The translations under genes and the position numbers were made by a program. This document shows positions 4,190-59,508 of a stretch of DNA of 64,000 nt, piece by piece; the first letter of the stretch is position 1; every line of letters starts with the position of its first letter. Source of the DNA: Halichondria panicea (taxonomy: Eukaryota; Porifera; Demospongiae; Suberitida; Halichondriidae); the NCBI RefSeq assembly GCF_963675165.1, contig NC_087388.1, positions 5,213,047-5,277,046 of the forward strand, read 5' to 3'. The notes under the pieces are model-generated. The model ran no database searches. It was not told the DNA's origin and was given only the letters and a program-made list of their open reading frames with translations.

Positions 4190-5440
4190 GCTGGACTCGG
4201 GAGGGGGTATCAGGGTGGGGGACTTTGGTCTGGCTGAGGACGTCTATGCTAGTGGCTACTTCAAACAGAACGACCGAGCCAATGTGAAGCTGCCCTACAA
4301 ATGGATGGCCTTAATTGGAAAGTCTCAAGAATGCCATCTTCACAGAGAAAACTGATGTGGTGAGTAAATGCATGCATGGTATATAGGCCTTAAGATGATC
4401 CTCAAGTTTTGCTACTACATATACTTGTTGTCCATGTGCCCAGTGGTCGTATGGTGTGACTGTGTGGGAGATCTTCAATGGAGGACGGACCCCCCCTGTG
4501 CCACCGAGATGTGAGTGTACACTCTGATTTCATTATACGTACATCGTATAGCAGATATATGTATTCAAGAAAGCCCTTTAGGAAGCAGGGCTGGTAATAA
4601 TCCGGGTAGACTGCAGATCGAGAGCTAGGGCTGCACGTCATTTGATTCATTATGTATACACATTTCCCCGTTATCCTCACACAGTTCCAAACTAATGTCT
4701 CAGTGTTGGAGGAAGGACTCAGAGGAGAGGTCAACCTTCTCACAATTGTCTGCCATTGTGGAGAAGCGACTGGCGTCCATTGCTGAGCTCGGTATGGTGC
4801 TAATGAACCCAACTGAAGAGGTGGAGCAGCTCGGTAAGTGTATAAATAGACTCAAACTCGTAGGTTAAGTGTATTAAACTTTTGACTTGATCTATACCAT
4901 CAGGCATGTACCGGGTAATTTTCGTTGGTGTTCGTACGATGTACCCATTTACATTCGTACAGCTCAGGATAGTGACGTTGAACCTATTATGCCAGAAAAT
5001 TTTATTTTTGGATGTGCTCTACAGATACAAAAAATTCTAAAATGTCCACCTAAAATGTCCACCATTACGATAGCTTTTAAATGTCGTAGGTGTGCAAATT
5101 TTGTACATATAAGAAATACTGTACTTTTTCTGCTAGTATTATGTTACTTCACATGCAAAGCGAAATTATCAATTGAATATCAAGTTCTGAGTTTGAATTA
5201 TATAGCCTCGAATCCAGCTGATTAAAATACGTACTTTTTTAATTGGTCGGGAAGCAAGGCTATGTTTAGCTTATGTCAACATTCATTTTTACTGCAGAAT
5301 GTGACCGTCATGAACCCATACATACTGATCATGAAGACGCTCATCGCTATGTCGACCCTCCGTCAAGTTATCCTCTAACAATTAAGAACAGCGGAGCATG
5401 CAACCCCAGGGAAGAGATTACTACAACAGACAATTTATAA
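4190..5440 (+). pseudogene. Inverted 3' fragment of a fifth plexin/Met-like receptor kinase gene
   Basis: Four exons matching kinase exons 21-24 lie on the plus strand: 4190-4359, 4444-4510, 4685-4833 and 5298-5440. Exon 21 keeps [14 protein letters not shown] and KLPYKWMAL but carries a 4-base insertion after the GCCTT of MAL, which shifts the frame. Exon 22 lost about 76 bases after GGRTP (67 against 143 nt). Exon 23 has a 9-base in-frame deletion. Exon 24 is open to a TAA at 5440, with tail [32 protein letters not shown]. The sequence upstream resembles intron 20 of genes A and D, so the copied segment started inside that intron, and no N-lobe is present. It is convergent with gene A. The tail combines features of the B/C and A/D tails and may be the older form. 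A functional product is very unlikely. Confidence 0.9.
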
Positions 5441-6347: not shown

Positions 6348-7111
6348 TTAATTGTCTGTTCCAGTAAATTCTTCTTCGTACATTCTGTTTTTGAATGCTA
6401 GAGGGTGACCTGGTAGACCATCTACATAGTGATTAACGTCTTCAGTAGGTGTGGGTACATTGTCACATTCTGCAGTAAAAGAAAATACTTAACAGTATGT
6501 TTTAGCATAATGTATACACTAAGTATACCGGTATTCAAACATTGTACTGATTTTTGTGGGCATTAATAGCTATAATGGCTATATTTATAGTAGCATATAA
6601 GGTACAGTCTTTTTAGCTATTATGTCTAATACTAACCGAGCTGCTCCGCTTCTTGACTGGTGTTCAGTAGCACCATACCGAGCTCAGTGTAGCCAGCAAT
6701 GGATGTCAGTAGCCTCTCCACAATGGCGGACAGTTGTGAGAAGGTTGGCCTCTCCTTTGGATCCTCTCTCCAACACTGACGCATCAGTTTAGATCTGCAT
6801 GTGTGAGGATAAGGGGGAAATGTGTACATGCAGTCAATCGTAAAGACAAGATGCTCACAGAGCATATATTCACTCTGTGCAGCGGCAAAATCACTTCTTA
6901 CCATAAGGACCTTACTATAATATAATCATTATATGGGGAATGATCGTGAATCTATAAAACAACGATATTAGAAAAAAAGTGTTTTTGTCATCTTCGAAGA
7001 TCACCTAAAATTCAGCTGTAACTAGCGTATTATTTTTCAACTATACTTCATGTTAGCAGTTAAAGCAGTCCAATAAAGTGTCTAGTTCGCTTCAACAGCT
7101 CATTTTTGTGT

Positions 7112-7150
<39 letters not shown>

Positions 7151-10100
7151 ACCCCTGCTGTACGCTGCGAACACATGGAGTAATAATCAACTGACATACA
7201 TGCAGCGGCCTAGCTCTCCTAAGTCTAAGGGGCTTGCTTGAAAACAAAGCTCAATGAAACTGCTACAATATACGTACACCATCCTGGTAATTTACTGAAC
7301 TCAGAGTGTAAAAACACATATGTTATATGGGATGCATTATCGTATTTTAGTGTTAAAATGACAGAAATTTATGTCATTTCTACATTAAATTTCAAATGAT
7401 GCATTTTATTTGAATGTTTTATGTTATTATAACGTATCTGTTTTTACTATGGTATACACTCACATCTCGGTGGCACAGGCTGTATTGAGAGGTTTCTCTA
7501 GTCTCCGCCCCTCTCCCAGCATCTGGATGAGGGAGTGTGGGTCCAGGGCAGGGTAGGGAGTCCGTCCTCCATTGAAGATCTCCCACACAGTCACACCGTA
7601 TGACCACTGGGCACATGGACAACATGCAATAATGAAAGCACCGCAGGTGCATGCTGATGCCTCAGTGGAGGTGTCAAAGCTAAAGCTATAAGATTATCAC
7701 GATGAACATTTTTGCATACATTTTGCTGCATGCTAGAATCAAGAATCATGCATACAGTGCCACATGATTGTTGTTTAAAACAATTGATGCCAAGTCTAAA
7801 ATGAATGGCTGCAACAGCAGGGCCTTGCAGCTTTTAGCCTCGATTCCAAGTTGCTCTCAAAGGAGAAAGACAGAGGACTGGTGCTCCATTCACTAAAACG
7901 CTAGCTGCAAGAGTAAGAGAGCTGCATAGCATCGATTCTAGGCCCTCTAGTGACCGAAAATGTCCAGTTTTCACTAGAGGGACTGGTATGTAGCTCTCTT
8001 CTCACTCTTGCAGCTAGCGTTCTAGTGCAGAACTAACTACTAAGTAGAGTAGCAACACTCCATGGACTACGCACTCTTCTGAAAAGGCTGCAATGGCGTT
8101 TCAAGTAAGCAGCATAACTCCAGAACGAAGCATTAAAATTCAAGAAAACATGACTATGGAAGCCTATAGAAACTCTTACTTACACTTCATTGATCCTTGA
8201 GCAGCTGTAGCAGTCTACACAGACACACAGACACACAGACAGACACACTACCGTATGCCTCACTGCGCATGCGCACCGAGACATAATTATTGTAGGCCTA
8301 ATACCATGCATGTGTACTGACTGACCACATCAGTTTTCTCTGTGAAGATGGCATCGTTGAGACTCTCCAAGGCCATCCATTTGTAGGGCAGCTTCACATT
8401 GGCTCGGTCGTTCTGTCTAAAGTAGCCACTAGCATAGACGTCCTCAGCCAGACCAAAGTCCCCCACCCTAATACCCCCTCCCGAGTCCAGCCTATTAAGA
8501 AAAAGATGCTGAGACTATCATGATTGTATACATGTAGTGTGAACTTGTGATGCTCTTTAAAATATATATGTCATTGGATATACGTATAGCAAAGAATACT
8601 CATAAATTGGTGAATTCGATATCTTTTTCTGTACGACAGTCCATATGCAGTTTGTCAAGTCAATACATATCTAGTGATGCTGTTACACTTTGGATAAGTA
8701 GCAATGAATTAAACTTCTCTCATTATTACTTATAATTACCCCATGCAGCTCAACTTGCAGCAAGGATAGAGTGATTGGTGTGTGTGTGTGTGTGTTTGTG
8801 ACAGTGTGGACTGATGAGCTGTTTGAGTGAACTATGCACTTTCATTAACTGCTAATGAGACAGCTGTTGAAAAATATTAGACTAGGTGATCTTTAAAGGC
8901 GACAAAAAACACTGTTTTCTAATCGATTTTTGCTGTTATAGATTCACAATCATTCCCCATAATATTATTACCGTATAGCGGGAAATTTTCGCGGGTGCAA
9001 ATTTTCGCTATTTGGCTCCAGAGCCCTCAGCAGAAATTTTCATGGTGTTCTAATATTCGCGTTTAAATGCCAGGAAACCACACCCACCAATAGCTTGCAT
9101 GTGAAATTACCAGTGCGTGGGAGTTTGTCCCGGTTTTAATTTTCGCATTACTACTCTGCCCTCGAAAAACGCGAAATTTTGCACCCCACGAAAATTTCCC
9201 GTTATACGGTATGTTAAGGTCATTACGGTCATATCCGTTTTGCCGCTGTACGAAGCACAACTCAAGGGGTGAATGCTCTATGAGCTTCATCTTGCTATAG
9301 GGCCAGGTAAAGTAGATTTGTTTCTTGTCAGCCCCCGCTTGTGGTAAACATGTCTCCTTGACCTCTAAATCACGTGCTCTTTTGGTTATAAATAAGAAAG
9401 AAAGTGATTTGCCATGTAGAATAAAAAAAATAATATTCCTGAGTAATTTTAATGAGGAGGATCGTCAAGGTAAAAATGTCTTAATTATAAAGCTGCTTCC
9501 GGAGGACTTTAATTGCTCATCTACTCTTCCTTTAGCATCTCCAATTCACGTGGAGTTATAGTTGAGTGGAATTTTAAAGTCTTTCGAAAGACCTTTTGAC
9601 ACTGACGATCCTCCTCTGGCTTCCTCTCTTTTCATGCATATTGAGGAAGTGGCTGATGAGAAACAAGGAATCTTTGCCTGGTCTAGTGAACTTTATATTG
9701 ATTTTGTTTCTCTGTATACACACATGCAGTCGTTGATGGCTCACTCACATGCAGTTTCTGGCTGCAAGGTCTCGATGGACAAAATTCTGCTCGGCCAAGT
9801 AGGCCATTCCCAGTGCTATCTGATGGCACATCTTCAGTAGTAGTTTCCTCACTTCCAGAATCTGTAGAAAATGGTAAGAACTTCCTCATGCACACAATTA
9901 ATTTTGTTGGTGCTCTGAAAAGGCTCACCACTATAATGAGACTATCCCCATAACGCTCAAATTGAAAATTCTTTTTCTAGCTATAGATCATTCATTTCTA
10001 GGAACAATCAGTTAGACCACCTTGAATGCGTAACTAGTGCAGTATTACATGCAGTGAGGAAGTGTTGTGGATTGTATAAATAATTAGGTTCAAGGGGAAA

Positions 10101-13100
10101 AAAGGCTGTTAATTTGGGGGCTGGTCAAGTCGTCAAAGAATAATAATCCTGACCGCAGTAGCAGATGAAAGTGTATAGTGTGCACTTTTGTCTTCCCTCA
10201 TAAACTACACACACTATAATCAGAGTCACCCACCTCTCTGTTAAGACACCCATGCAGACAAGGCTCATACAATACTTACTTTATTTCCAAAGGTATACTG
10301 TATATCTAGATACTGAGCTATTTCCATGACTTTAGTTCAAAGCTATAATTATCACACCTGATCAACCTCACAGTCATCGTCCAACTCAAGGCTGCTCCTC
10401 TCTCTCTTGAGATATCCAATGAGGCTCCCGTTGGCCATATATGGCATCACTATGGCAATGCCGGGCCCAGCATCGAGACACACCCCGATCAGGGACATGA
10501 CATGAGGATGGTCAAAGTCTTGCATCTTGTTCACCTCGCACACCATGCTCTGAAGATCCGACAACGAGAACAAACCTGCAAGGTAAACATGAACAATTCA
10601 GGTTATAATTACAATCCTCTATATAATTATAGGGGAAGCATAATTTAGTGAATATGCTTACAAATACAACAGACTAATTACATCAATTAAGCTAGCTATG
10701 AAATTGTACTGTCAGAGAAATGCACCTTTTAGTGTCTTCATGGCCACCCCTTGTATAGGTACATTGTTCCAGTCTGTCAAGATGCCCTTGTACACAATGC
10801 CAAATTCACCTGATAATTATTCCATAAAATAAATTATTTGCACATCTTTGTTTACCTTGTCCTATTGCAGTACTGGAGAGCTTCAATATTGAGGCTGGTA
10901 TTTTTATTGAGTCTGGGATGGACTCAGCAATCTCAACAAGTTCTGATTCTGTGAGTCAGTGAATACTCAGTGCAAACTATAATAATTATAGAACTAAACT
11001 TACTAACGAGTGCTGTATTGCCATCCATAGGATATATTTCCTCCCGTGTTCCCCTGTAACAATGAATAAGATGATTGAACAGCTACTATTTTTATTACTT
11101 ACGAATTAGCCATGATTTCCATCATCTGTTCTTGCAGAGCAATTGACATGATCCTCCTCCGATATTTCTGATATAAACGGACAAAAATGATCAGTATTAC
11201 AAACACGATCATCACAATAACCCCCAAAACACTCGGGATGATGATTTCCAGTGGAACTGCAGCCACAGGAACTGTGTAGGTCAGTTGCTGGTCCAATACT
11301 TGAGAGATGTTGCTCCCAACGTTCACCTGAAGAGGACAGTAACACAATTACGCTATACCCTATAGTCACTTACTTGTATCGTGGCTGAGTTTTCCCCTCC
11401 TGGAGGCTCCAAGGGGGCGGTACAGATGATTTCACTCCCTCTTAAGCTACCGGGTGTCCTGATACACTCCTCCCCTCCCACTGTCACTTGTATCTCACTG
11501 GTCTCCACTGAGTCGAGATTATCACCCTGGACACACACACAATAACAGTAGTATGGTCAGTGTATACTAGTTATAGGACGTACCACAATGCGCATGAGCG
11601 TCTCTGTGCCACTGGTGACCTCTTGAGAACTCTCTAATTTAAATTTAGAAGGATCTGATTGGACGCTGATAAGGAGGTGTGCTTGTGTAATGAGTGAGAC
11701 ATTATCAAACAGTAGGGCATAGTCTAATGGTGTCAGTGAGATTGTTGTCAGACTAGGAGTCAAGCATGTCATGGTGGTATTGTCCACAACACTGCAGTTA
11801 CTCCTCTGTAGAGGAGGGACAGTGCATCATGTACTGTTACAGTATATATTTTCAGGGCTTGAACAAGCCACAAAAATTCTCAGTCATGGGTCAATAATAA
11901 ATTAATGACACTACAACTTCGGTACAAGTACTATAGTGGCTGCAAAATTTTCATTCAAGATAAAATGCTGTTTGTGACCATCGAAAATTACCTGCTATAT
12001 ACGGCAGCTTACCAGAGGAGCCCCCATTGGCTGGTGGTAGACCTCCAAAACAATCTGTTCTACCACGTCCAAGTTCACTCCAGTAAAGGTCAATGTGATG
12101 CCTCCACTAGGAATAGTGTTGCTAGGAAACACGGCAGTCACATTAGGGTTGTTACGATAACTGAAGACCACTCCTGGATTGCTGACTCTAGCAGCATCAA
12201 TGGACACCACTACCAAAGCAGCGGAGGTGAGGGGTCCTGCTGTGGTCGTGCAACGAATCTCGTCAGATTGGATAGATCTGCAGGGAAAAGTTTGAGCATT
12301 GTCAATTAATAGCTACTTAATAATTATAGTATCACTCACGATATGTTGCAGACGTAGTTTGACCCGCTGATTTCCAGAGAGATTCTAGTGTCACCCTGGT
12401 TACCCACATCCAGTGCAGTCCCCATCACAACCACTGCAGTTCCCCCATCCATGGATCCAAAGGTCGGAGTCACACTGCTGACAGTAGGATCCACCACAGT
12501 GAAGAAGCCACCGTTTACAATGGCTACTCTAGAGTCGATGGTCAGAGAGAATTCTTTTGACCCTTCTGTTACAAAATTGGTCGTCTCACAGACAAACTGC
12601 TGCCATCGTATGTAACCAATAATGAGGGGAGTGCAGGCCACGCCTCCTAATGTAAGGTTGGAGTTCTGAAGGCTGACAAAAGTTCCTCCAAAGTCGGTGC
12701 TCATCACAGTGATTGCTGTACCACCCTCAACTGGTCCTGTGTGTGCAGGTCGCACTTATTCCATATCAATTCAACAAACAAAAAAAAGTGACCGTCTCAG
12801 ATTTGGACGAAACTTGGCACATAAGTAGTATATGAGGTGACATTATGCAACACAAGTTTTAAGCTCTGTTCATTGTATGGCTTCCGGGTTAGGGCTAATT
12901 GAAATAATTATAGCGAAATCTGTACACTGGCTAATACTTAATGCCCAGTAACACTTTCAGTTTTAATTTTCAAAGTTTTGCACTTTACCATCTTATAGTC
13001 TTTCACGTGATATGTTATATAGCTTCAATCAATAAAGTAGCTGCGGGAGGGTGTAATCAGTGAACTTTGAACTTTGATTACTTAAAAAGTGGTATTTAAA

Positions 13101-16100
13101 TTTCCCCGAAAAAATTTCCTAATTTATTTTGGGGCATGGTCTAATATCTATACGAATTTGATTGTGGGCTTTCTATGGGCTCAGGAGATACGAATCAGAA
13201 TGACATTCCAAGTTTGGCTCAAATGTGTTATCACAGTACATGCATAATAAGTTCACAATAATAATAGTGCCAACTCATCATTAGTGCATGTACACTGAAT
13301 AAAAACTCTGATATCTAATTTTCTGCCAAAACGGTACGTAGTTTCTCTGAAGCAAACTTGGACTCTTTCTTTAGCAATGTGTAAGTACGGCCTGTTCTTG
13401 TTCTTGGATCAACTGTTCCAAGTATGTGTTTAGCTGGTACAGTGTGTATGTCCGGACAGCTGGATACTTAAATGAGTTACTAGGCCCATGAGGGTGGAGA
13501 AACGTTAGTTTTACTCGGCTGTTTTCAACATGCACCTGCAGCACACATGCTAACCACCATTGACCATCACGCAAACAAGTGACAAAACTAGAAATTGACT
13601 CCACTGCTATGTCAGTATCCCCTGATGCAACTCTCTCTTCTTTGAATGTGATACAGGTTGAGAATAGTCTAACTTGCACTTTATCAACCGAGATAGGCAT
13701 GCACGTACGAGTGTAGCTTACGAGTACCTGGAATTGTTCGAGCGTTTTTGGAATCTTCGCTCAAGATTCTGCTGTTCCCTCTTGTAGTCTTCATTACTGC
13801 AATATTCAAAGTAAACTGCTGGTATATGCTAATGGGATGCCCAATCAAATAGTTAGCGAGGAGTCATTATTTGATCATTATACGGCCTTTGCAGACTAGC
13901 TCTGGCAGCAAGTCGTTTAACTGTTCCCCCAAGACCATCACAAGCTCCTTTCCCATGAGAGGTAGCTGAAAAGTGCCACTCGGTAGATATTCCAAAATCA
14001 TCCTTGTGGTGGCACAAGTTGACGAAATTCTTCCTATTCTTGTACTGGGACCCAGCATCTGGACTAGAGAGAACCCCTTTTTCTTCGACAAGCTCTTTTG
14101 ACTTTTGAGCCATGTAATCAACTGAATTTTCTTAATCGACTAGCTTTGGGGCAAAACAGTGAGAATTTGTATTTGCTCACTTTTTTGTGTGGTTTTGTTA
14201 AATTTTTCTTTCAATTGTTTGAGTATTTTATTTCACTCCCGTCATCATGCATGTGGTTCTGCACTAACGATCGTTTGCCTCATTGCTTTAGTGATCTCCT
14301 CAAATTTTTTTCTGGGTAACGAGGCTGGCTATGAGAGTTCCGCAATTAAGGGAATAATATAATTATGCATGCAATGCAGCATTCATGTAGACTACATGGA
14401 TTGAAAATAAGGTTTGTGTACTACTTTTTTAACAGTATTATGTAAGGGAATGGAATGTGTCACCACATTCTGATTTGTATCTCCTGAGCCCATAGAAACC
14501 CCAAAGCCAAATTCGTACAGACATTAGATTAGGCCCTAAAATAAATTATGAAAAATTTTTGGGAAAATTAAAACACTGCTTTTTAAGCAATCAAAGTTCA
14601 AAGTTCAAAGTTCACTGATTACACCCTCCCGCAGCTGCTTTATTAATTGAAGCCATATAACATATCACGTGAAAGAGAATTTTCTGTACTATAAGATGGT
14701 AAAGTGCAAAACTTTAAAAATTAAAACTGAAAGTTTTACTGGGCATTAAGTGTTAGCCAGTGTACAGATTTCGATATTATTTCAATTAGCCTTAATCCAG
14801 AAGCCATACAATGAATAGAGCTTAAACTTGTGTTGCATCAATGTCACCTCAAGTACTACTTATGTGCCAAGTTTCGTCCAAATCTGAGACGGTCACTTTT
14901 TTTGTTTTGTTGAATTGATGTGGAATACACTAGTTTAGTATATCCTCACATAGTAAGCTAAGCATACTAGCATGCATGCATATGCTCATATAATTATAAC
15001 CTCGATCCCATCCCCTCTCACCGTCTTTCTCAATAGAGAGCGGCCTGGAATCGACCTCATAAATCATATCCATGCAGTTTAAAAGGCTAGTAATGCAAGT
15101 GTGATATATACTTTGACTACACTACATATGCAGTGTGCATGTGTACGTACATACGTACAGAAAAATGATAGGTGATATACTATACGCTGACTGCATTCTT
15201 ACCTAATATTGGAGTGAATGAGTTGATGACAGGGGCAGGAAGATTTATCCCCTCAGTAATGAAAGTATTGGAGCACTCTTGCCTCACCTCACAACTACCC
15301 TCACACCACCCACATGCGAACTCTGACCCCATTCTGACTGCAATACATTCTGAATATCCACTGGCCAAGTCACGACAATCATACAACGTCACTGTGTGTG
15401 TGGGTGCGTGAACTAGTAGATTGTCTAGACTATCTGGAAGTGCCTATCCAAATATTATGATTCACAGATAATGGTACCTGACAATGATTGCATGGTGTTG
15501 CTCAGTGTGTGGTTGATGTTATCCCCCGTCCAGGTTACCATAACAACCACAGGGAAACTTCCAACACCAGGGAAAAGTGTGCCGAACTATAAACCAAATT
15601 TTCAGTAGGTGCAATTAGTGCAATTATGCTTACTTAATTAGGAATGTGTTTACAAGTACATGAATGTGTGCATTATTTAATCTGCACAGCCGCACAAAGA
15701 ACTGCATGTTCCAGCTGTAACTGTTACGGGTTGCAATGCAACAAAAACTGATGATTCTATAGGCTTCTCTATAGCCATGCTCACAATAGTTTGATGCCAG
15801 AAGCATGCAGCAGCCATTTTTGTGAGACTTTCCTCTTCCAAAAATTCTTGCTCTAATTTGTTTCTTGGAAAAAATATTCGTAATATACATTACAAAAACT
15901 ACTGTCATTATTGTACACACTCTAAATTTTGGAGTGAAGCAAAACATGCCGAGGCGCATTAGCACATGTACAGCGGAACTTGCAACATTCTGTACATGTT
16001 AATCAGGCACGTAATTGTGTGCAAGTATCTATTGTGACAAACAGTACAAGTGATCCTCCTCATTCCACTGGATAATTCAATCACATAAGCCAACCATCAC

Positions 16101-19100
16101 AAAATTAATAAAATACTACAAATTAGTACTCACTTGTCCACTGCCCACTGTACACAGGATGGAGCTCTCGTTCTCATACTGAGCTGTCAGACTAACTCCA
16201 TTCACAACACAATAGTATTCGAAGCCATCCGTCTAATGGAGACGGAAGTCATGAAACAATCATATATACATGTGTCATGTGACTCACAGCAGGTATGAGG
16301 TTCCTGGTGGTCAGTCGAAGGTCCTGGGCCACCCTTACTGGTTGAGTGTACCCACCAGAGGGGGGTGTGTCCAATAGGGGACACTCGGTAGTGAAGTTTT
16401 TGCCTCCAGACACCTTTATATAGTACAGAGGATGTATATAGAGAGATACAGGTCACCATGAGCTCACCTGTAGGAAGTGAGATGGATTCCTGCAAGGAGC
16501 TGATGTTCCACTGCACTGCTTGTTGAGGTTACACCATCCACACGGACTATTCAGCCCAAGGCAATCCCTACAGCTATATACAACAGGTTATATTATAAAA
16601 ACATAATTATATTCTCCTGACGATGTTCTATAAGTGGTAGCTATCAAGTTGTGTCAAACAAGAAGGGCTCCCTCTCTCAATGAGCGAGTCGTTGAGCATC
16701 AAGTCCAAACTGTCAACTCCAGTGTGAAGGAAGGGTCGTTTTGTGTAGTCCCTATATACTGTACGTGCTACCAGTTTTTGCAGACAATGAATTTAGAATC
16801 ATTTAGCCCTATCTACCTGGACATATACAATATTATCTTTACTTGCAATTTCTTCAGCTATAATTATTTTCAGCTACGCATGCAGTTACCTATATCGCTA
16901 TTTATAGACATGCCCAGACACAATCTATCTCAGACCTTATTGTTTGCTCATCCGGATATAAAAGTGAAAAATCGGCCTGGATTGACTAGCTACACATAAA
17001 ACAATAGTTGTGATCATGGAGAGTTGTATTTAAGCTTATAATTATTATACTTGCCTTGAATATTTGCATTCAATATGGGTGGATACCTTTTTCCTGCTGA
17101 GCAATTGTAGATAGTAAGTGCTTGGTTGGTGATATCAAATGACAGATTGAACAAAGAGCTCTGAAAACCCAGGTTGATGTTTGCAGTCACTCCAGGGTAG
17201 TCAGGTACCAGCCCTTCAATATCACAACTGAACACTGTTCCCGGGATGACCTCGACAGCTGGTACTATGATAGGTGGAAAACGTCCTTCACTGTCGGCCA
17301 GATGACAGTAGAAGCTCTCTCCAGGAAGGGGGTTAGGCAGGCCGGGAGAGGTCAGGGTAACTGTGAGCTGTGTAGGTACGTCTGATCTTAGACACAACTA
17401 TAATTATACACAAGCCTTACTTTATTAGTAAGGTCAAGCACAAGTTGCATAGGTTCCACAGTATTAGAAGTAAAACAGTTGGCATAGTTCTCTATCCATC
17501 GACTGGAGAGACTGGAGTTTTGACACTGTGTCTGTCGAGAGCACTTGTTCTCCACCACACACCACCCACACAACGGGTTAAGGTCATTGGTACAACTGGT
17601 ACAGTTTGTATGCTGGAAACACTCCTCTATGGGTACTTGGAATACCTACAGAGAGGGGAGGGGTTGATATAGGGTAGGACATACATGTAAGCATTAACTC
17701 ACAGAGTTTTGAGTGGCTGCTGTGATGTAGTTCAGTCCCTCCTGCCATGACAAACGATACACATGAGAGGTAACTGGCTGATTGTAGAATGAGCTATCAG
17801 CTGTGTCCAGGGTCGATGTACCACTGACATCGAACTGTGAAGAAACAATGCCATTAATTACAGACTAACTTACTCAAACTAACTTACTCCTAGTATCCTA
17901 TGATCATCAGTTGTTGCCACAAACAAAAAAGAAAACTGATCCACCTTCACAGCTACTGAAGAAACAGGGAAAAGGTTGCTGTCCCCGAAGTTAATACGAA
18001 CTGGTGCTATTAGGTCAATACCACCATTTGGGGCAAGAAGGCCGACTGGACTGGGTGTGTCACATCTGTCTACTGGTATCTGGAAAATGAAGTGTGCATG
18101 TGAATTGCTATAGTAATGCCAGTATAATTTAATAATGGAATACAAACCTGAGGCTGAGGCAGAGTATCGCAGCTTTTTAGGTCTGTTCCCCATTGTAAGC
18201 CAACGTCTTCCCCAGCAGTCCGTGACACAATACAAGAGTCATATTTAGCGTCCATAGCTTCATTGACAGCAGTGATATTGACCACACAAATAGAGTTAGT
18301 ACTGCTGGAGCAAAGAGTTACCACAGCAGTGGGTCCAGATATCCCACTGAAGTCCTCCATTAATGACACTGCACACACATTAGTACGGTCAGTGATAGAC
18401 TGAAAGCCACAATCGAATCCCAGTTCATACAAAGCAGTCACTCCACAGGTACTTGGGCCTCCACAATCAGGCATGATGCAAATACGTAATAGTTTTATAG
18501 CTTGTGCTAAAACAGGTTCGCTATCGACGACAACATAGTAGGCAAATCCACCACTCACAAAACCACCAAATGCATAGAAGTATCGTGCCAAGGAATCAGC
18601 AACCTCAACAACCAGTTCATTGCGTGTGCCTGATGAATTGCTGTCGGAAGATCTATTGAAATCCTCTCCAAATTGTTGCAGTACCATTGTCAGTACTTCA
18701 AGGCCCTCCTTCATTGCTCCAGTGTAGAAATTGTCTCCTGACATAAATATAGCTGCTCCAAAGGGAATAAAATCTCCCCCTATAGCATTACTGACACTTC
18801 TGATAGGACCAGCACTGAGGTCGCTTGTATTGTACACAGAGCAAGAGAGATCAAATAAACAAACCACCAACATCCCAGTAGAGCTCAAGGCCAGTCCTTC
18901 GTTAATGATAACTGCTCCTAGATCAACTCTCTCCTCTTGTATTAGCTGAGCATTCAGTCTATACAGGTAGTTGTCTGCAGTGAGAAATGTTCTCCCAGTG
19001 GAGTCCACCTGCAGTCCTGGGATACCTTCAGTGTAATCAAAGGAGAAATATTGAGAATGAGCTGCTCTTTGCAGCAGAAACAAAAATAAGAGTGACAATA

Positions 19101-19104
19101 ACAT
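6348..19104 (-). CDS. Gene A: plexin-ectodomain / Met-like receptor tyrosine kinase (24 exons, 1607 aa)
   Basis: Predicted single-pass cell-surface receptor kinase. Exons read by eye, 5' to 3': 19104-18148, 18079-17888, 17834-17703, 17645-17421, 17367-17087, 16573-16468, 16413-16288, 16232-16134, 15586-15478, 15391-15203, 12736-12340, 12277-12013, 11805-11584, 11526-11374, 11326-11103, 11053-11004, 10948-10856, 10809-10726, 10575-10358, 9861-9749, 8491-8326, 7606-7464, 6794-6637, 6469-6348. All junctions are GT-AG and the sum is 4824 nt, in frame. The start Met begins a hydrophobic signal peptide ([11 protein letters not shown]). Exons 1-3 encode the Sema propeller, exon 4 PSI-1 ([10 protein letters not shown]), exon 6 PSI-2, exon 10 PSI-3, exons 10-14 IPT repeats and exon 15 the TM helix. 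Exons 17-23 encode the kinase: GQGEFG loop, VAVK lysine, [11 protein letters not shown], and [10 protein letters not shown] followed by DVWSYG. The tail ends [24 protein letters not shown]. Catalytic residues are intact, so kinase activity is expected. The ligand is unknown. Confidence 0.9.
7306..7449. mobile_element. Short MITE with AGTGTAAAAACA-type ends (gene A intron 22)
   Basis: AGTGTAAAAACACATATGTTA at the left and, inverted, AGTAAAAACAGATACGTTAT at the right. The sequence is absent from the same intron of genes B-D. The ends resemble those of the 731-3148 element and may belong to the same family. Confidence 0.45.
7636..8290. repeat. Dispersed repeat in gene A intron 21
   Basis: Begins GAAAGCACCGCAGGTG..GATGCCTCAGTGG and ends near GCATGCGCACCGAGACATAA. 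The same family is at 63377-63956, with partial copies at 23104-23160, 25850-25935 and 44600-44712. An inner inverted repeat (CTAGCTGCAAGAGTAAGAGAG) spans 7897-8020. Confidence 0.6.
8969..9211. mobile_element. MITE with TACCGTATAGCGGGAAATTT ends (gene A intron 20)
   Basis: TACCGTATAGCGGGAAATTT with its inverse at the other end, in a ~240-bp palindromic element flanked by TA. Related elements occur at 29169-29389 and 48109-48333 (intron 15 of genes B and C), and a degraded one lies at about 1395-1575. A TA target would fit a Tc1/mariner- or pogo-derived MITE. Confidence 0.65.
12757..14927. mobile_element. 2.2-kb DNA transposon relic with ~500-bp terminal inverted repeats in gene A intron 10
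   Basis: Ends TATTCCATATCAATTCAAC and its inverse are flanked by CACT (12753-12756 and 14928-14931), a 4-bp target duplication. The arms (12757-13200 and 14470-14927) align inverted over roughly 450-500 bases. Minus-strand frames between them give [20 protein letters not shown] then [17 protein letters not shown] (14060-13890), and a separate [18 protein letters not shown] block (13560-13470). I have seen such blocks in transposon-derived proteins of invertebrates but cannot name the superfamily with certainty. The gene is broken by shifts. Confidence 0.8.
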
Positions 19105-21330: not shown

Positions 21331-22035
21331 ATGCATGTGTGAGAAATAATATCCAAGATCCATATCCAGATCCTCCTGGCAGAATCATCTTTGTCTTGAA
21401 GGCCTGGTAAGCCACAAAACACTACCATATAACAATATAGATAACAATATGCATGTACACAGGTCTTTTCTTCTTACATATTATATACACTGAACTACAG
21501 ATCCTGGAAGAATCAATTTTCTTCTTTCTTGAGGTCCTAGTAAGCCACATAATACAACAATAGATGCATGTAAATAAGTCTTTTCTTCTCAGTGACTTTA
21601 TATAGATAAGCTAACTTTAATATAAAATTCATTATAGAAACTAATATAACACTCTAATACTTTTCAGCGAAAGCAAAAAACATGGCGAGAGGCATTAGCA
21701 CAGCGCCAGCTTGAACACTAGTTGTTACATCATTTCCTGTAAGACCCCATTTCCTGTTAACTAGGTGCAATCATAGATAAAAGAGACAAATGGATAAGAA
21801 ACAGTTTCCCCCGGGATTCATTCGAGGCCGCCTACTGTACATGGAAAAAATGGCCAAAAACACAAAAAAGAGACAAATGATTGTCTTACTGTCAGTGTGA
21901 GAACCCTGCTGCTGAACTTTTACTTCTGTTTAATACTTGAGGCTATATGACACACAGTACACTACTTGTATAGGTTGTTCTAGCTGTATTATAGGTGTTA
22001 TTGGTACAAGAAACATCCTAAGTAGTGAAAGCAAT

Positions 22036-25000
22036 GTGGGGGCGGTGTGTGGAGCATGTCCGCCAGGCTACACTGGAGATGCACTCAAGTGTTATGGTGA
22101 ATTGATATAAATCGTATTACTTTGTCTATAATAATAATGAGCAGATATTGATGAGTGCTTCCTAAATCAAACTCTCTGTGACTACAACTGTACAAACACT
22201 GATGTATAGGGTATCTCTTTGCTCCTGTTTTGATGGCTATCAGCTAATTGAGGAAACAAGTGAATGTGAAGGTGATTACTAGATTCCAATCAGGTACATA
22301 AATGATAATGCACAGTATGTTCTAAAGTCCTAAGCTCTTTATGGAGTGAAACAGAATGATATAGTTATTTCTGGCCTTCTAATTAATGGAGTTGTTGTCA
22401 TGGATACTTTAAGCCTCTGGTTCTGAGCCTTCTCTGTTGTGAAAAATTTACTTTGGTCACACACATCATTACCTATAGTACATAATTGTCCATGCTTTCT
22501 TTTGTTGGGTTGTAGATATGTATATAACATTTAGCACTAGCTCCTATATATAACTGTCTTCGTTCTCTAGATACAATCAATTAAATATAGATACAAATGA
22601 ATGTGACGAGTTCAGTGGGTGTCAGCAGTTGTGTGAGAACACTGTGGGGTCTTTTGTATGCAACTGTACTGAAGGATTTACTCTGGCCACCGATGGAAGA
22701 AACTGTACAGGTAAACCAGGGTTCTGATTTTTGTCTTATAATTATTATGTCAATTACCTGAAAACATATTTACAGCAAATTAATGTACCTTGTGATGGTA
22801 CTTGTTCATTTGGCTGTGCTGTTGTCAACAACATGGAAAAATGTTACTGCCCACCTGGATTCCAGCTTGATGTACCTGGGGAAACACAATGCGTCGGTTG
22901 GTGTTTTGGTACACTTAATTTGCTGCATCATAATTATGCCTCGAGGCGGTTCCGTACAGAATGTCACTAAATGAAAAAATTGTCCCCAGTATATAGGAGC
23001 TTTTAATGCCGATGCATGGGCACTAAATCTCTCCTACATTATTTAGAGGAATAAATCTCTATAATAATATGGGAATGTTTAAATGACTGAGGGCACTAAG
23101 TCTTCCTTAATGATGAAAGCACCGCGGGTGCTGATGCCTCGGTGGAGGTGTCAAAGCTACATAACATAAAGCTACTAGCTATATTATATCATCAAGGGCG
23201 TATCATGTTGCATACGAAAAGAAGAGAGGGCATATTATGCAACAGCAAAAGAGCAGAGTTCAAACGTGGGCGGATGAATGTGCATGATGTGTGCATCACT
23301 TCATGCAAATTCACAAAAATTGTTGTACACTCCATGCATGCTTGTGGGGTTTTATACTTGTAATCAAGGCCCGATTACTGTACGTGTTATAATAGTCAGA
23401 CCACAACTAATATAGAGTTACTGCATGGCATTCTATATAGCTATAGCTGTTTGTTTACATATACACTTTTATAGATACTAATGAATGCCAGTTGAATATG
23501 TGTGAACAAGAGTGTATCAACTCTAATGGATCGTTTTCCTGTTCATGCACAACTGGTTACATGCTTACAACTGATGGACGAACATGTACCGGGGTATTGG
23601 TGAGAAGCATGATTCAAGAGGTGGTTTGTTCTGTATCATGTCGAGTTATCCCTACCAGATATTGATGAATGTTGGCTAGCTGTGCGGGAATCAAATGACC
23701 TTTGTGAGAACTATCTAAACACAGAGTGCGTTAACAACGAGGGTTCATTTAAGTGTGTTTGTGTCCGTGGATACACAGCAAACTCAAATGGAATTTGTGA
23801 GCGTAAGTATGAATATGAATTACCCTAGTTAATTTGCAATGACATGCATCACTGACACTGAATTATGGCATATCATCCATATTGTAGTTGATGATGAACT
23901 CCCTCCGATGATCAGTGTGATCAGACCACAGAAAAGTATTGAGAATAGTGTGAACTTCTCATCACCTATACTGGTTTCAGAAAATGTGAGTATTTATCCA
24001 GAGGTCTGGTTCATCATGCAAGCATGACGGTGTTTTTATTTGGTTAAACAGTTCAGTCCAGAACGCCGACAAAAATTTAGGGAAGCAATCGCAGTTGCTG
24101 TCAATAGTTACTGTGGGCTTACAACATGTGATCTTCTTCTCCCATCTGGAGAAACTCAAATGCAAGTCATGATTGCATATTATACCTTCTTATGCCAAGA
24201 ATAATTACCAATTGTTCTGTGCAGATTGATAAGACTAACAATTAAAGCAGCTAATGTAGCCATACCTTCTTCGTTGATTTATCAATACATCAATGGACAG
24301 CTTTTGTTCACCTTCTATGTACAAGTTGGTGATGCCTTCCTATCAAAAGAATATCTTAAGCCAGCAGTGCAGGTATATGTTATTGTCCATTGGCTAATAC
24401 ACCAAGCTTAAGCCTCTAATATAAAATTCCTATAACACATGCAGCAAGCTGAAGAACTCTATCGAGATGGATTGCTGCCTCTCCTCACAGCACAATCCCT
24501 TCATTTTCATATCCTGTCACCACACCTAGATCTACAACCTTGATCAAGACGATTTTAGAAGATACTCAAATAATTGCCATAGCAGCTGGAGCTGGTGGAC
24601 CAGTGCTCGTAATCATGACAGTACTACTCAGTCTCTTATGGTGTCTATAATTGTGCTGTATGTGTTGCTGAATGATACTACAAATATATAAATATACATA
24701 TAAGTATACAAATTAGTTAAGGGATTAGAAACGAAAGTACGAATCTCCACTTACCCCGCAAGTCAATCAATTAAGCAAGCCAAGCTGTACTGAGAACCGT
24801 GGCTTGCGAGGTAGCTAAGCTGGTGCCTATTTCTACACACCGTGCAGAATAAACCACTATAGAAAATGTGCTCATCCATCCCTCAGAGGAAGTATATAGG
24901 CGTGGGAATGAGGCTAAATGATTACATGCATTTTCAAGGCCGTAGCAAGCGGTCAGGCTGATCAGGTTTTGGCCGGACTACTTTTTTGGAGCTAGTACCT

Positions 25001-25580: not shown

Positions 25581-26111
25581 TAGGCTAAAAATTGCTCATT
25601 TTCAGTAATATGCGACTGATGGAAAACATGCATAATTATTAATTAATTATTTTCGTTCTGTTACAGTACATAGTATTAGACTACTATAATCTTATAGCTG
25701 CCTCATAATTATACCTGTGGACAATTATATATTAGACTCTACTCTTTTTATAATATTCTCTCACTCTCACTGCAGCTATTAATGACATTGACTATTTGTG
25801 CATATATAATTATAATTATTGACCTTTCTATGGACCGATCTATTCTCAGACTTGAGCAGCTGCCACACACACACAGACACACACACAAACACACTACCGT
25901 ATACCTCGCTTGCGCATGCGCACCGAGGCATAATAAACACAACAATGTGCTCTTTTTGTACAGTTCTTTGATTTACTAAAACTGTCATACTCATGTTAAG
26001 GCAGTGCTTGGTAGCTAGGCCTTGGTGGAATTTGCTATAGCATATTTTTAGGAAAAAATAGGCACAAACAAATGTTTCAAAGCAAAAGACTGTCTGCATA
26101 ATTATAATTAT

Positions 26112-26204
26112 GGAGTCCACTTGCAGTCCTGGGCGATTGACTGATCTGGAATGACTGTGAGCTGCTCCTTGCAGCAGAAACACTGTTAAGAGAATATAGC
26201 CCAT
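26112..26204 (-). pseudogene. Relic first exon (signal peptide) of another kinase-family gene
   Basis: A short stretch encodes MGYILLTVFLLQGAAHSHSR, followed by GLQVDS. It matches the start of exon 1 in genes A-C ([17 protein letters not shown]) on the same strand, but lies 3' of gene B with no other Sema sequence beside it. I read it as what is left of a deleted member of the array. It is too short to be a gene. Confidence 0.7.
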
Positions 26205-26729: not shown

Positions 26730-29700
26730 TTATAAATTGTATGTTGCTCCGCTGTTCTTAATTGTTAGAGGATAACTTGACGGAGGGTCGACATAGCGAT
26801 GAGCGTCTTCATGATCAGTAAGTACGGGTTCATCGTCACATTCTGCAGTAAAAATGAACTATTGCATGGGTCCAAATATTAGATGATGACACAATAATGA
26901 CATGTTTACACGTACTATATAAGACTCCGGTTTAATGATACTTATGCATGGGCATATCATACAGCTACTATAGTATATATATAGCGGTACTCTGAAACAG
27001 AAAACGTACAGTATTTTTTGCTACATAGTGCTACTGTACAAGTAACATGTATTAATAGTAAGACCTACAACAAAACAAGGGTCAAACTAATACCTTAGTA
27101 CTATAATACAACCATTACAAGACCGAGCATTAAAGCTAATTTTATACACTTACTGAGCTGCTCTGTTTCTTGAATGGTATTCAGTAGCACCATACCGAGC
27201 TCAGTGTAGCCAGAAATGGATGTCAGTAGCCTCTCCACAGTGGTGGACAATTGTAAGAAGGTTGGCCTCTCCTTTGAATCTTTCTTCCAACACCGACGCA
27301 TCAATTCAGAGCTTTGAGGATAAGGGGATGTACAGTTGGGCCAAAACAATACTAAAACCCCCAATTAAGGAGAATGCAGCCAGTTCTAGTCTATCTGCAG
27401 GCCCCCACAACCAACAACAAAGCACAAGGGGATTTGCTTAAATAATAGTATTTGCAACTGATACTAATCAACTCAGAGAGTACACTCACATCTCAGTGGC
27501 ACAGGCTGCATTGAGAGGTCTCTCTAGTCTCCGTCCTTCTCCTAGCAGCTTGATGAGGGAGTGTGGGCCCACGGCAGGGTAGGGAGTCCGTCCTGCATTG
27601 AAGATCTCCCACACAGTCACACCGTACGACCACTGGGCACATGGACAAGAAGGAACAATTAATATTGCTAGTTGCAATACCTGAGGGGTATTGTGACCTT
27701 AGGTCTACCATACTGCTCTGACTCACCACATCAGTTTTCTCTGTGAAGATAGCATCATTGAGACTCTCCAAGGCCATCCATTTGTAGGGCAGCTTCACAT
27801 TGGCTCGGTCGTTCTGTCTGAAGTAGCCACTAGCATAGACGTCCTCAGCCAGACCAAAGTCCCCCACCCTGATACCCCCTCCCGAGTCCAGCCTATTGTA
27901 ATGTACAAGATGAAACCACACTGAGACAATCATGTACACTAGTGATGCTGTTTACACTATCAATACCCATGGATACATAATTATAGTAATGACTCATCTA
28001 TAATATATTGGCTATATATGTATTCACAATGACTACTCGTACACACTGTCGATGGTCCACTCACATGCAGTTTCTGGCTGCAAGGTCGCGATGAACAAAC
28101 TTCTGCTCGGCCAAGTAGGCCATTCCTAGTGCTATCTGGCGACACATCTTTAGTAGCAGTTTCCTTACTTCCAGAATCTGTGTAGAAAATGGCAACATCT
28201 TCCTACAGAATCCCATGCACCAATGACCTATCTCCTAATGAGACTATATTATTATCACCATTATACAAAATAGTAAACTTAATGGTTCAAGACACACAAA
28301 AATTTGCAACAACGAAAATAACGTGCTGCATGTATATACACACATATAGACCTCTACCACACACCTGATCAATCTCACAGTCTTCGTCCAACTCAAGGCT
28401 GCTCCTTTCTTTTTTGAGATAGCTAATGAGGCTGCCGTTGGCCATATATGGCATCACTATGGCAACACCGGGGCCAGCATCGAGACACACCCCAATCAGG
28501 GACATGACGTGAGGATGGTCAAAGTCTTGCATCTTGTTCACCTCACACACCATGCTCTGAACATCCGACAACGAGAACAGACCTGTAGGGTAGACAATGA
28601 TTAACTAACTCTGGACCAGAGGAGGTTCAACAATTCGTTCAATGTTGCATGTTATATAATTGCAGAAATGGTAATCTCTACAGGGGGCAGGAAATTTGAA
28701 TTACCCATAATTATTATTAATACACAGATAATTAGTGCATGGCTGACAGCAGACTAAGTGTATCAAGCTATGACACAATGTTAACCTTTTAGTGTCTTCA
28801 CGGCCACCCCCTGCATAGGAACTTTGTTCCAGTCTGTCAGGATTCCCTTATACACAACGCCAAATTCACCTGTATAGTGACATTCCATAAATTAATTGTA
28901 ATGCACATCTTTCTTTACCTTGTCCTATTGCAGTACTAGAGAGCTTCAATATGGAGGCTGGTATTTTGAATGAGTCTGGGATGGACTCGGCAATCTCAAC
29001 AAGTTCTGATTCTGTATAATTATAAGTCAGTGAATATAGTATAGACTGCATGCATGGATGTATAAAAATCATAGAAACTTACTAACAAGTGCAGTATTGC
29101 CATCCACAGGTAATATTTCCTCCTGTGTTCTCCTGTAACATAATTGGACAGCTGGACTATAAGTATTATACAGTATAACGGGTATATTTCGAGGGTATAA
29201 ACTTTCGCAGAATGACCCATTAGAAACAGTTGATCACTGCTACTATGCTATAGCGATTTAATTTTCGCGGAATAGCAGCCTTTCTGCAGCATGCATTGAT
29301 AAATTCGTGGGTAAAAATGTTTGTGGTAGATGTTTGATCAGCGAAAACCACGAACATTTATACCCTCAAAATATTCCCGCTATACGGTAATTACCTATTA
29401 GCCACGAGCTCCATCATCTGTTCATGCATAGCAATAGACACGGTCTTCCTTCGTGAGTTCAGACAAAAACAGACAAAAATGATCAGTACTACACACACTA
29501 CCACTACAGCCCCCCCCAAAACACTCGGGATTATGACCTCCAGGGGAACTGTCGCTTCAAGAACTTCCACCGTAGGAACCTCCACCACAAGAACTATGTA
29601 GGTCAGTCGCTGGTCTAATACTTGAGCGATGTTGCTTCCAACGGTCACCTAAATAGCACAGTAACACAGTTAAGTTATATAGTTTTACTCAACTCGTATA

Positions 29701-35700: not shown

Positions 35701-35821
35701 TATTAATAGGGATATCAAAGGAGAATGATTGAGATTGAGAATAAGCTGCTCCTTGCAGCAGAAACAGCCTGAGGGCAAAGAGTGCTACTATAAACATATC
35801 CTTTTCTTTAGCACTGAACAA
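26730..35821 (-). CDS. Gene B: plexin-ectodomain / Met-like receptor tyrosine kinase (24 exons, 1635 aa)
   Basis: Exons 5' to 3': 35821-34829, 34783-34598, 34267-34127, 34075-33842, 33795-33515, 33378-33273, 33222-33097, 33045-32947, 32820-32715, 32611-32423, 31077-30681, 30592-30310, 30121-29900, 29846-29694, 29648-29395, 29132-29083, 29011-28919, 28869-28786, 28582-28365, 28177-28065, 27892-27727, 27632-27490, 27311-27154, 26842-26730. They total 4908 nt in one frame with GT-AG borders throughout. A second Met at 35797 ([15 protein letters not shown]) fits the signal peptide better and aligns with the start of gene A, so it may be the true start. Domain order matches gene A: Sema, PSI-1/IPT/PSI-2/IPT/PSI-3, IPT array, TM, tyrosine kinase with [12 protein letters not shown] and DFG. 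The tail [23 protein letters not shown] is shorter than in A. AATAAA on the coding strand at 26723-26718 lies just past the stop. B is the closest paralogue of C. Confidence 0.92.
29169..29389. mobile_element. MITE of the CCGTATAGCGGG family (gene B intron 15)
   Basis: CAGTATAACGGGTATATTTCG opens and the inverse of CGTATAGCGGGAATATTTTG closes a palindromic element. The same element is in gene C, so it predates the duplication. Confidence 0.6.
31139..32338. mobile_element. ~1.2-kb insertion in gene B intron 10
   Basis: Intron 10 is 153 bases in gene C but 1345 bases in gene B. The extra sequence starts with a hairpin (31150-31280, TTAGACACTGTTTAGGAA against its inverse) and ends with a GC-richer block containing inverted CACTCGGG/CCCGTGCCCG motifs near 32230-32325. 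No coding signature was seen, and the element class is unknown. Confidence 0.6.
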
Positions 35822-58760: not shown

Positions 58761-59508
58761 CCTTGCACCTTCCATTTCAAGTGCCCATGCAACAAATGTT
58801 GCAACATTCATGGCCAACCTGTTTCTACTTTTTTTTTCTTTTTTTTCTACTGGTTGGCTATCAGCATTTCTAGGTCAGTACTATAATTATATACACCATT
58901 CTTAATGCTGATATTGAATTGAATACTCCCTTCTTTCTCCTAAAATTGATACAACTCTGCGCGAGGCTAATAATGCGTGTGCATATACCTAGTTATTTTA
59001 TGGAGGGCAGTACAGAAAAAATAAGCATACAGTGTACTTATTAGTTTAACCTATTAGCAGTTCGGAGGTAGCCAGGTCCACTAATTGATAGGAGTGCTTT
59101 GAAAGTGTGACCAATGCTGGAGCGAGCACTATACAAATACATTGTATTGCAGAATGTAGCTGCATGTGAGAAAATCAATCAACAGCGGAGCCATGCCATA
59201 GTAGATGAGTACGAGCACTCCTATTTGTCAACAAGGCGCGGCTAGCCTTTGTGGCTTCCGTGGCATAAGGACAGATGGCAAACATTGCATGTATATAGGC
59301 ATGCATGTGTATACATGCATGTATGATGCTAATAAAGATTAAAGCAGCTGGTTATAATTATATACACACTATATCAATATAATTATTATAAATAGTGGTA
59401 TACAGGGAACAACAATTCAATCTTTAACCTCATGAACTAAAGGCTATAATTATAGCAATATTATATTGTCTGTTGCAGTAAATTCTTTGTACATTCTGTT
59501 TTTGAATG

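Follow-up and report, generated by a model that had tools for sequence, protein, structure and literature searches.

The closest described counterpart of the receptors considered here is Met-LP, which Junqueira Alves et al. reported in 2019 from annelids, molluscs, and a starfish as a receptor with a complete plexin ectodomain and a tyrosine kinase (PMC6374515, cited here and below from excerpts). In those excerpts, Met and Met-LP are reported from bilaterian clades only; Met-LP is polyphyletic in a tree of Sema and PSI sequences, those of the starfish group with the plexins of that animal, and two separate origins were inferred (PMC6374515). For the sponge Amphimedon, the same excerpts list semaphorins, two full-length plexins, and four further plexins, Plexin-A1 to -A4, whose intracellular parts are short (PMC6374515), and an excerpt of another paper states, citing the 2010 genome paper, that Amphimedon has 150 receptor tyrosine kinase (RTK) genes, with a Met-type kinase domain among them (PMC3584944). 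Here we analyzed a stretch of 64,000 nucleotides from the sponge Halichondria panicea (contig NC_087388.1, hereafter C12; C12:5213047-5277046 in assembly coordinates), called the window below, and searched its genome assembly (131 Mb, 39 contigs). The window carries part of an array of genes predicted to encode a plexin-type ectodomain and a tyrosine kinase in one polypeptide. These genes probably descend from a plexin-kinase fusion that arose in the lineage of this animal and was then amplified.

Gene A of the window runs on the minus strand from an ATG at 19104 to a stop codon ending at 6348, and its 24 exons encode 1,619 amino acids. The gene model was predicted from DNA alone with splice sites picked by hand; all introns are GT-AG with compatible phases, and the reading frame has no internal stops. 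In order, the predicted protein consists of a signal peptide, Sema, PSI1-IPT1-PSI2-IPT2-PSI3, IPT3-IPT6, a transmembrane helix, a complete tyrosine kinase, and a tail. Exon 1 (18148-19104) encodes the signal peptide, recognized by eye, and the N-terminal ca. 300 residues of the Sema region, assigned from the splice model and a Sema profile comparison. Exons 2 and 3 (17703-18079; 17888-18079 and 17703-17834, respectively) encode the C-terminal Sema part, collinear with the Sema ends of plexins, and exon 4 (17421-17645) encodes the end of Sema and PSI1. IPT1 and the start of PSI2 lie in exon 5 (17087-17367), PSI2 in exon 6 (16468-16567), IPT2 in exons 7-9 (15478-16413; 16288-16413, 16134-16232, and 15478-15586), and PSI3 with the motif VTLYDC...CGWC in exon 10 (15203-15433). 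From the splice model and Pfam on segments, exon 11 (12340-12736) was assigned IPT3, which includes GPVEGGT, and the first part of IPT4, and exons 12-14 (11374-12277) the rest of IPT4, IPT5, and most of IPT6. Exon 15 (11103-11326; splice model and hydropathy) encodes the end of IPT6, the transmembrane helix, and the start of the juxtamembrane segment; hydropathy showed a single strong membrane helix at residues ca. 1190-1212. The juxtamembrane segment and the kinase start are placed in exons 16 and 17 by the splice model (10856-11053), and the tyrosine kinase in exons 18-23 by Pfam and motif inspection (6637-10809), where GQGEFG is completed. Exon 24 (6348-6469; splice model and motif inspection) encodes the C-terminal tail with Y1594 and Y1610 and the stop codon. 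The kinase retains the GQGEFG glycine loop, the VAMK lysine, HRDLAARN, DFG, and the activation-loop tyrosines Y1443 and Y1447. The ectodomain has 18 N-glycosylation motifs. As for a furin-type site, R-x-K/R-R was found nowhere in the protein and R-x-x-R nowhere in the ectodomain.

A Pfam scan of the whole gene A protein with a permissive E-value limit of 10 returned PK_Tyr_Ser-Thr at 266 bits, TIG/IPT in four stretches, and PSI in three. The plexin GAP domain (Plexin_cytopl, PF08337) was not found in this full-length scan and is present elsewhere in the genome at two loci. When the segments were tested singly, PSI1 (38 bits) and IPT3-IPT6 (27-43 bits) were above the Pfam cut-off. PSI2 (19.0 bits) and PSI3 (14.4 bits) were below their cut-off of 23.1, IPT2 had only a sub-threshold match to TIG_2, and IPT1 had no Pfam match; these four domains were called because of a collinear plexin alignment, IPT1 by the Plexin-A1 alignment alone. 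Among PDB sequences, the ectodomain matched Plexin-A1 best (186 bits, E = 9.7e-54), followed by Plexin-A2 (168 bits), Plexin-A4 (154 bits), and MET (116 bits). The Plexin-A1 alignment was collinear from the end of Sema into IPT5. The MET alignment began only at PSI3, and the single PSI of MET pairs with the third PSI of the gene A protein; PSI3 of exon 10 can be aligned both to plexin PSI3 and to this single PSI. One predicted polypeptide combines the plexin ectodomain layout (Sema, three PSI, and a series of IPT) with a tyrosine kinase. An earlier note on this DNA had described Sema, three PSI alternating with IPT, and further IPT as in plexins, with a tyrosine kinase instead of the plexin GAP behind the transmembrane segment. 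At the level of the predicted protein, our analysis confirms that the ectodomain is plexin-type and that a tyrosine kinase replaces the GAP: Pfam detected the kinase, PSI, and IPT, and the collinear Plexin-A1 match supports the order of the ectodomain. Sema, which had no Pfam match, is the softest part.

For Sema alone, no meaningful Pfam or PDB match was obtained with exon 1 (26 copies), an exon 1 profile, or the Sema region, and the Sema part of a related gene at C12:3.65 Mb likewise had no meaningful Pfam or PDB match. A profile of the head was compared with a small semaphorin profile, composed of one sequence from the same genome and three from PDB alignments. In local mode, 258 collinear columns were aligned with a score of 29.0 and E = 0.0066, at an HH probability of only 5.8%, and the VCGTNAF-type, VYFF-type, and RIC landmarks were in register. 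In global mode, Sema alone gave no alignment (E = 0.93). When PSI1 was included in the head profile, the E-values were 8e-4 (local) and 1.5e-5 (global). Controls by shuffling and reversal were applied to this comparison alone; none of 100 column-shuffled profiles reached the local score of 29.0, the best having 26.4 with 48 aligned columns. For exon 1, an AlphaFold model built with three copies from the window had a mean pLDDT of 34 and was left unused. We accept the putative Sema domain chiefly for its position ahead of PSI1 in an ectodomain of plexin type, and additionally for the weak remote match, and regard it as the weakest-supported part of the protein.

Gene A is one of several copies on the minus strand of the window. 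Paralogues B (27155-35779) and C (45935-53626) have the parts from Sema to kinase in the same order, each with a kinase 89% identical to that of A. Paralogue D is represented by its 3' part, IPT to tail (59465-63317), the 5' part lying beyond the window; the nearest Sema exon upstream of it is at C12:5284160-5285143. Because B, C, and part of D repeat the same order of parts, the layout of gene A is more than chance. In a simple test of intron positions, B and C each shared 17 of 22 with gene A; the test is crude and misses introns near indels, so the misses include detection failures. Genome-wide, 28 near-full copies of the Sema exon were found at C12 4.56-5.57 Mb, along with one 60% copy at C12:6.74 Mb and 13 additional fragments, and the search with exon 1 detected Sema exons of this type on C12 alone. 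The Sema exon was open in all 27 near-full copies examined. Downstream of every near-full Sema exon (28/28), a same-strand kinase exon 19 lies at a distance of 4.2-9.7 kb, which is strong evidence that ectodomain and kinase were duplicated as one gene. Together with the 24 GT-AG exons in frame and the in-frame transmembrane exon, this pairing bears out the single gene assumed in the earlier note. On this pairing, we reject two separate genes.

The ectodomain has close relatives on the same contig. The 60% copy of the Sema exon belongs to a gene at C12:6.73-6.74 Mb whose ectodomain is traceable as far as the beginning of IPT5. Plexin GAP exons follow on the same strand, separated from this receptor-like ectodomain by exactly 5,000 N (C12:6727672-6732671), and the sequenced part of the gene had no kinase match; we regard it as most likely a true plexin. 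Domain by domain, identity to this plexin is 64-80% between Sema and IPT2, 60% in PSI3, and 55% in the covered part of IPT3-6. In the gene at C12:3648000-3657000 (C12:3.65 Mb), which is plexin-like, the open frames encode a hydrophobic helix and end in a short tail rich in tyrosines; neither GAP nor kinase was seen in them. An ectodomain tree was calculated from the PSI1-IPT6 region with 13 rows; three short rows were left out, and Ron was absent. The receptors and the C12:6.73 Mb plexin formed one clade (support 100/99), and the C12:3.65 Mb gene was the next branch (87/94). A clade of the receptors and MET that excludes the C12:6.73 Mb plexin was rejected (p-AU 0.002), MET being a long branch. 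The tree places the ectodomain with a plexin of the same genome and rejects a grouping with MET in its stead.

The kinase was compared in the same way. The best single-domain PDB matches were Mer (216 bits), Axl (206 bits), Ret (204 bits), Met (201 bits), and Ron (200 bits); the chain at the head of the list carries two EGFR kinase domains, which score 146 singly. Three kinase trees were calculated with human reference kinases. For the sponge rows, 14 single-exon loci were fetched, of which two without an accepted frame and two that were too short were left out; three long or partial rows were omitted from the second tree, and a fourth also from the third. The kinases of the sponge family formed one clade (100/100), nested in the Met+TAM clade with support of 99/96 to 99/99 in the three trees; in the third tree, this clade held 16 kinases of the genome (Met+TAM 99/99). 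In the second tree, where Met/Ron was the nearest neighbor, the alternatives of a TAM sister (p-AU 0.37) and a position outside both (p-AU 0.30) were not rejected. A kinase of the RET group was rejected (p-AU 0.0004). The kinase called Met/Ron-like in the earlier note holds its place inside the Met+TAM clade (99/98), but TAM as sister or a branch outside both fits as well, and Mer is the best PDB match. On these trees, the kinase is best described as Met/TAM-type, not specifically Met.

The 16 kinases split into three sub-branches. One of them, with seven IPT-bearing kinases (the array genes and genes on contigs C2, C4, and C5), was supported in two trees (93/87 in the third and 95/85 in the first). 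The C2, C4, and C5 genes have IPT2-PSI3-IPT3-6, a transmembrane segment, and the kinase in common with the array genes. In the sequence examined, they showed no recognizable Sema, PSI1, or IPT1, and of PSI2 there was only a stretch with 41% identity in one gene on C5. In the sequence upstream of these parts, Sushi and a sub-threshold IgGFc match were found for the C2 gene, SRCR and Sushi for C5, and a sub-threshold Ig match for C4. Of the two other sub-branches, three members were examined; they have FN3 and Sushi upstream (C6) or IgGFc-binding and Sushi (C1 and C11), and no PSI or IPT was found upstream in them. The upstream scan covered the C1, C2, C5, C6, and C11 genes and one of the two C4 genes (L009), the C4 row of the tree being the other (L010).

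We consider it probable that a plexin-kinase fusion arose in the lineage of this animal and was then amplified. In this view, a local plexin contributed the ectodomain and a large local family of RTKs, other members of which use other ectodomains, contributed the kinase; the fusion gene would then have been amplified to at least 28 near-full copies on one chromosome. The earlier note had left the choice between an ancestral link and an independent fusion; the grouping of the ectodomain with a plexin of the same genome and the rejection of the clade with MET favor the latter. Several points weigh against this reading. The identity of the C12:6.73 Mb gene as a plexin is not certain because of the 5,000-N gap. 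Receptor monophyly had a p-AU of 0.33, so that this plexin may be sister to the receptors or nested among them, and it could itself have received a receptor ectodomain; we infer the direction of the fusion, which the ectodomain tree does not resolve. Introns were shared with the C12:6.73 Mb plexin at only 4 of 12 covered positions and with the C12:3.65 Mb gene at none of 4; because introns near indels are missed, this test was given little weight and adds no support. In the kinase trees, the nearest neighbor of the sponge clade varied (Met/Ron 84/54, Met/Ron 65/31, and Mer/Axl 85/44), and the second tree did not resolve the IPT-bearing sub-branch. The N-termini of the C1, C2, C4, C5, C6, and C11 genes were read from same-strand upstream open frames, unspliced, and the IgGFc match of C2 and the Ig match of C4 are below the Pfam cut-off.

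An ancestral link, with the array receptors, Met-LP, and Met/Ron all descended from one plexin-kinase fusion in the animal stem, is unlikely. It agrees with the position of the kinase in the Met+TAM clade, where Met as sister is not rejected, and Met, Met-LP (in the excerpts of PMC6374515), and the array receptors all join a plexin ectodomain to a tyrosine kinase, so that repeated joining would be a striking coincidence. However, the ectodomain groups with local plexins and a grouping with MET alone is rejected, and two other sub-branches of local kinases exist whose three examined members lack PSI and IPT upstream. The plexin part would have had to be lost later from the local kinases, and the C12:6.73 Mb plexin would have had to take the receptor ectodomain, which requires ectodomain replacement or gene conversion. 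Still less probable, indeed very improbable, is a sponge orthologue of Met/Ron with secondary gains of PSI and IPT. The kinase within the Met+TAM clade and the Met-type kinase domain ascribed to Amphimedon (in the excerpt of PMC3584944) would suit such an orthologue, but the PSI-IPT order is plexin-like, the ectodomain is 60-80% identical to the local plexin from Sema to PSI3 and 55% in the covered IPT3-6, no R-x-K/R-R site is present in the gene A protein, and the ectodomain clade with MET is rejected. An artefact, in which neighboring separate genes for ectodomain and kinase were joined by eye, is hardly conceivable: the splice model is handmade from DNA alone, but the transmembrane exon lies in frame between the halves with matched phases, and the two co-occur in 28/28 cases.

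For the amplified fusion genes, we compared constraint along the protein by the ratio of nonsynonymous to synonymous substitution rates (dN/dS). Two pairs of Sema exons (C12:5288717/5321730 and C12:5462480/5526442) look near-identical, owing either to duplication in the very recent past or to haplotypes that entered the assembly twice. The Sema calculation used 27 of the 28 near-full copies, one being left out and the C12:6.73 Mb plexin kept separate; for kinase exon 19, which has at least 33 matches on C12, 24 were obtained and 22 used, two having failed the trimming motif. The median dN/dS was 0.57 for the Sema exon (351 pairs, median dS 0.27) and 0.10 for kinase exon 19 (median dS 0.35). 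Between A and B, the values were 0.58 for Sema, 0.47 for IPT2, 0.38 for IPT3-6, 0.24 for the whole kinase, and 0.16 for IPT1. Invariant residues of the Sema exon, 11 cysteines among them, flank the short, distinct stretches in which its variable sites lie; some of these stretches are gapped in the majority of copies. In unchosen 20-codon windows (24 of the 27 copies, three near-identical copies left out), none was clearly above 1, and two were at 1.00-1.01. The Sema variation fits a diversifying binding surface, and positive selection is not proven. Because variation is far greater in the heads than in the kinase, it is likely that different inputs feed one conserved output.

These data bear on the role of the array and not on its origin. 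An ordinary expansion of guidance or adhesion receptors that diverged under relaxed constraint, with no recognition repertoire, is quite possible, though we would not call it probable. It is in line with dN/dS below 1 in every region compared, with no unchosen window clearly above 1, with a juxtamembrane part as fast as Sema, and with the recent duplication shown by the near-identical pairs. Such an expansion is harder to reconcile with the clustering of the variable sites between invariant residues, 11 of them cysteines, and with the differing N-termini of the relatives (SRCR/Sushi, IgGFc-binding/Sushi, and FN3/Sushi). Only tentatively do we suggest that the array is a germline-diversified system on plexin ectodomains for the recognition of microbes or of self and non-self. 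Variable Sema loops and the other heads of the relatives (SRCR/Sushi, IgGFc-binding/Sushi, and perhaps Ig) would then sit on a shared stalk with one conserved Met/TAM-type kinase. This suggestion is weakened by the transmembrane-juxtamembrane part, whose dN/dS between A and B is 0.57; Sema is thus not uniquely fast, and relaxed constraint fits as well. The variable stretches had a pN/pS of 1.07 against 0.46 for the remainder, but they were chosen after inspection. According to an excerpt of a study of Halichondria, a plexin-group gene and a Sema-domain gene were up 6 h after bacterial lipopolysaccharide (PMC8242945), a response compatible with recognition. If true, the recognition array would correspond to the large families of variable immune receptors in other invertebrates, but would signal through a kinase.

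We infer the ligand, the activation, and the biological role of the fusion receptors from the general biology of plexins, Met, and TAM kinases. The ectodomain would keep the receptor inactive until a ligand at the Sema head, perhaps a semaphorin or else some other partner of cell-surface or microbial origin, pairs two receptors. The paired kinases would phosphorylate each other, first at Y1443/Y1447 of the activation loop and then at Y1594 and Y1610 of the tail, and the phosphorylated tail would recruit SH2 proteins. Pfam Sema matches occur at one place on contig C15 and at three on C11, the C15 gene being closest to semaphorins; the Sema-domain genes on C15 and C11 are possible candidates for the ligands.

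Some further features were observed in and around the array. Intron 10 of gene A contains an element of ca. 2.2 kb (12757-14927) with long imperfect terminal inverted repeats, comprising five arm pairs that are 85-96% complementary, and open frames between them; it is probably a DNA transposon or fold-back element. On the plus strand at 4191-4847, an inverted truncated copy consists of kinase exons only, is 98% identical in the activation-loop exon, and is probably a pseudogene fragment. An open frame at 25779-26204 on the minus strand begins with residues similar to the signal peptide and the start of exon 1 and seems to be left over from a further copy. Open frames on the plus strand at 21934-24650, which lie between copies A and B, show EGF-type repeats and a hydrophobic helix by eye and may perhaps form a separate membrane-protein gene. 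Elsewhere on the contig, the canonical plexin locus at C12:6481500-6507500 has three PSI1-like matches, suggesting repeated exons or a duplicated gene. In the wider assembly, a Piwi exon of 57 residues was closest to the Piwi entries 7yfq, 7kx7, and 9iiy (98 bits), which belong to the freshwater sponge Ephydatia, ahead of Piwi-like protein 1 (91 bits) and Siwi (68 bits), in line with a sponge host. There were 77 cathepsin-type matches; six of these loci were excised, and the five that were read all have Cys in the active site, none of them being silicatein-like. A COX1 model hit a single fragment, located in a nuclear contig.

The earlier note knew of no described receptor with this layout; Met-LP has the same layout in the excerpts of the 2019 paper (PMC6374515), and that claim falls. 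Among the matches listed in the open-access literature, which leaves subscription papers mostly outside, no sponge receptor joining Sema or plexin parts to a kinase was found. As far as searched, then, the layout is already known, and the sponge case, the scale, and the exchanged heads are unreported in the open-access literature. With a sponge as host, plexin-kinase fusion would extend beyond Bilateria, and these two kinds of module would have come together at least one more time than has been assumed, or a single time at a much earlier date. Setting a kinase tree against an ectodomain tree makes it possible to test how the Met family originated; the 2019 tree, as excerpted, rests on Sema and PSI (PMC6374515). 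The array would also couple one kinase output to many heads and could be useful for asking what plexin-type receptors recognize.

Among known receptors, Met and Ron resemble the array receptors in the Sema-PSI-IPT ectodomain, the Met/TAM-group kinase, HRDLAARN, and the activation-loop tyrosines. They differ in having one PSI and four IPT, against three and six in the array receptor, where no furin-type site was found. The activation loop of the array receptor reads Y-x3-Y-F, unlike the double tyrosine of Met, and its tail is unlike the Met docking site. TAM receptors (Axl and Mer) are similar in kinase sequence, Mer being the best single PDB match; their ectodomains consist of Ig and FN3, whereas that of the array receptor is plexin-type. 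Plexins, class A being closest by PDB match, share the order and the collinear sequence of the ectodomain and carry Plexin_cytopl/GAP where the array receptor has a tyrosine kinase. The C12:3.65 Mb gene is like Plexin-A1 to -A4 of Amphimedon, which in the excerpted account have a plexin ectodomain without GAP (PMC6374515); unlike those models, the array genes carry a complete kinase. Met-LP is the nearest counterpart, with a complete plexin ectodomain, a transmembrane helix, and a tyrosine kinase in place of the GAP, and in the excerpts the Met-LPs of the starfish, like the array genes, are multiplied (four Met-LPs) and group by ectodomain with plexins of their own animal (PMC6374515). In contrast to Met-LP of Lophotrochozoa and Echinodermata, the array belongs to a sponge, comprises 28 near-full copies, and has relatives that bear other N-termini.

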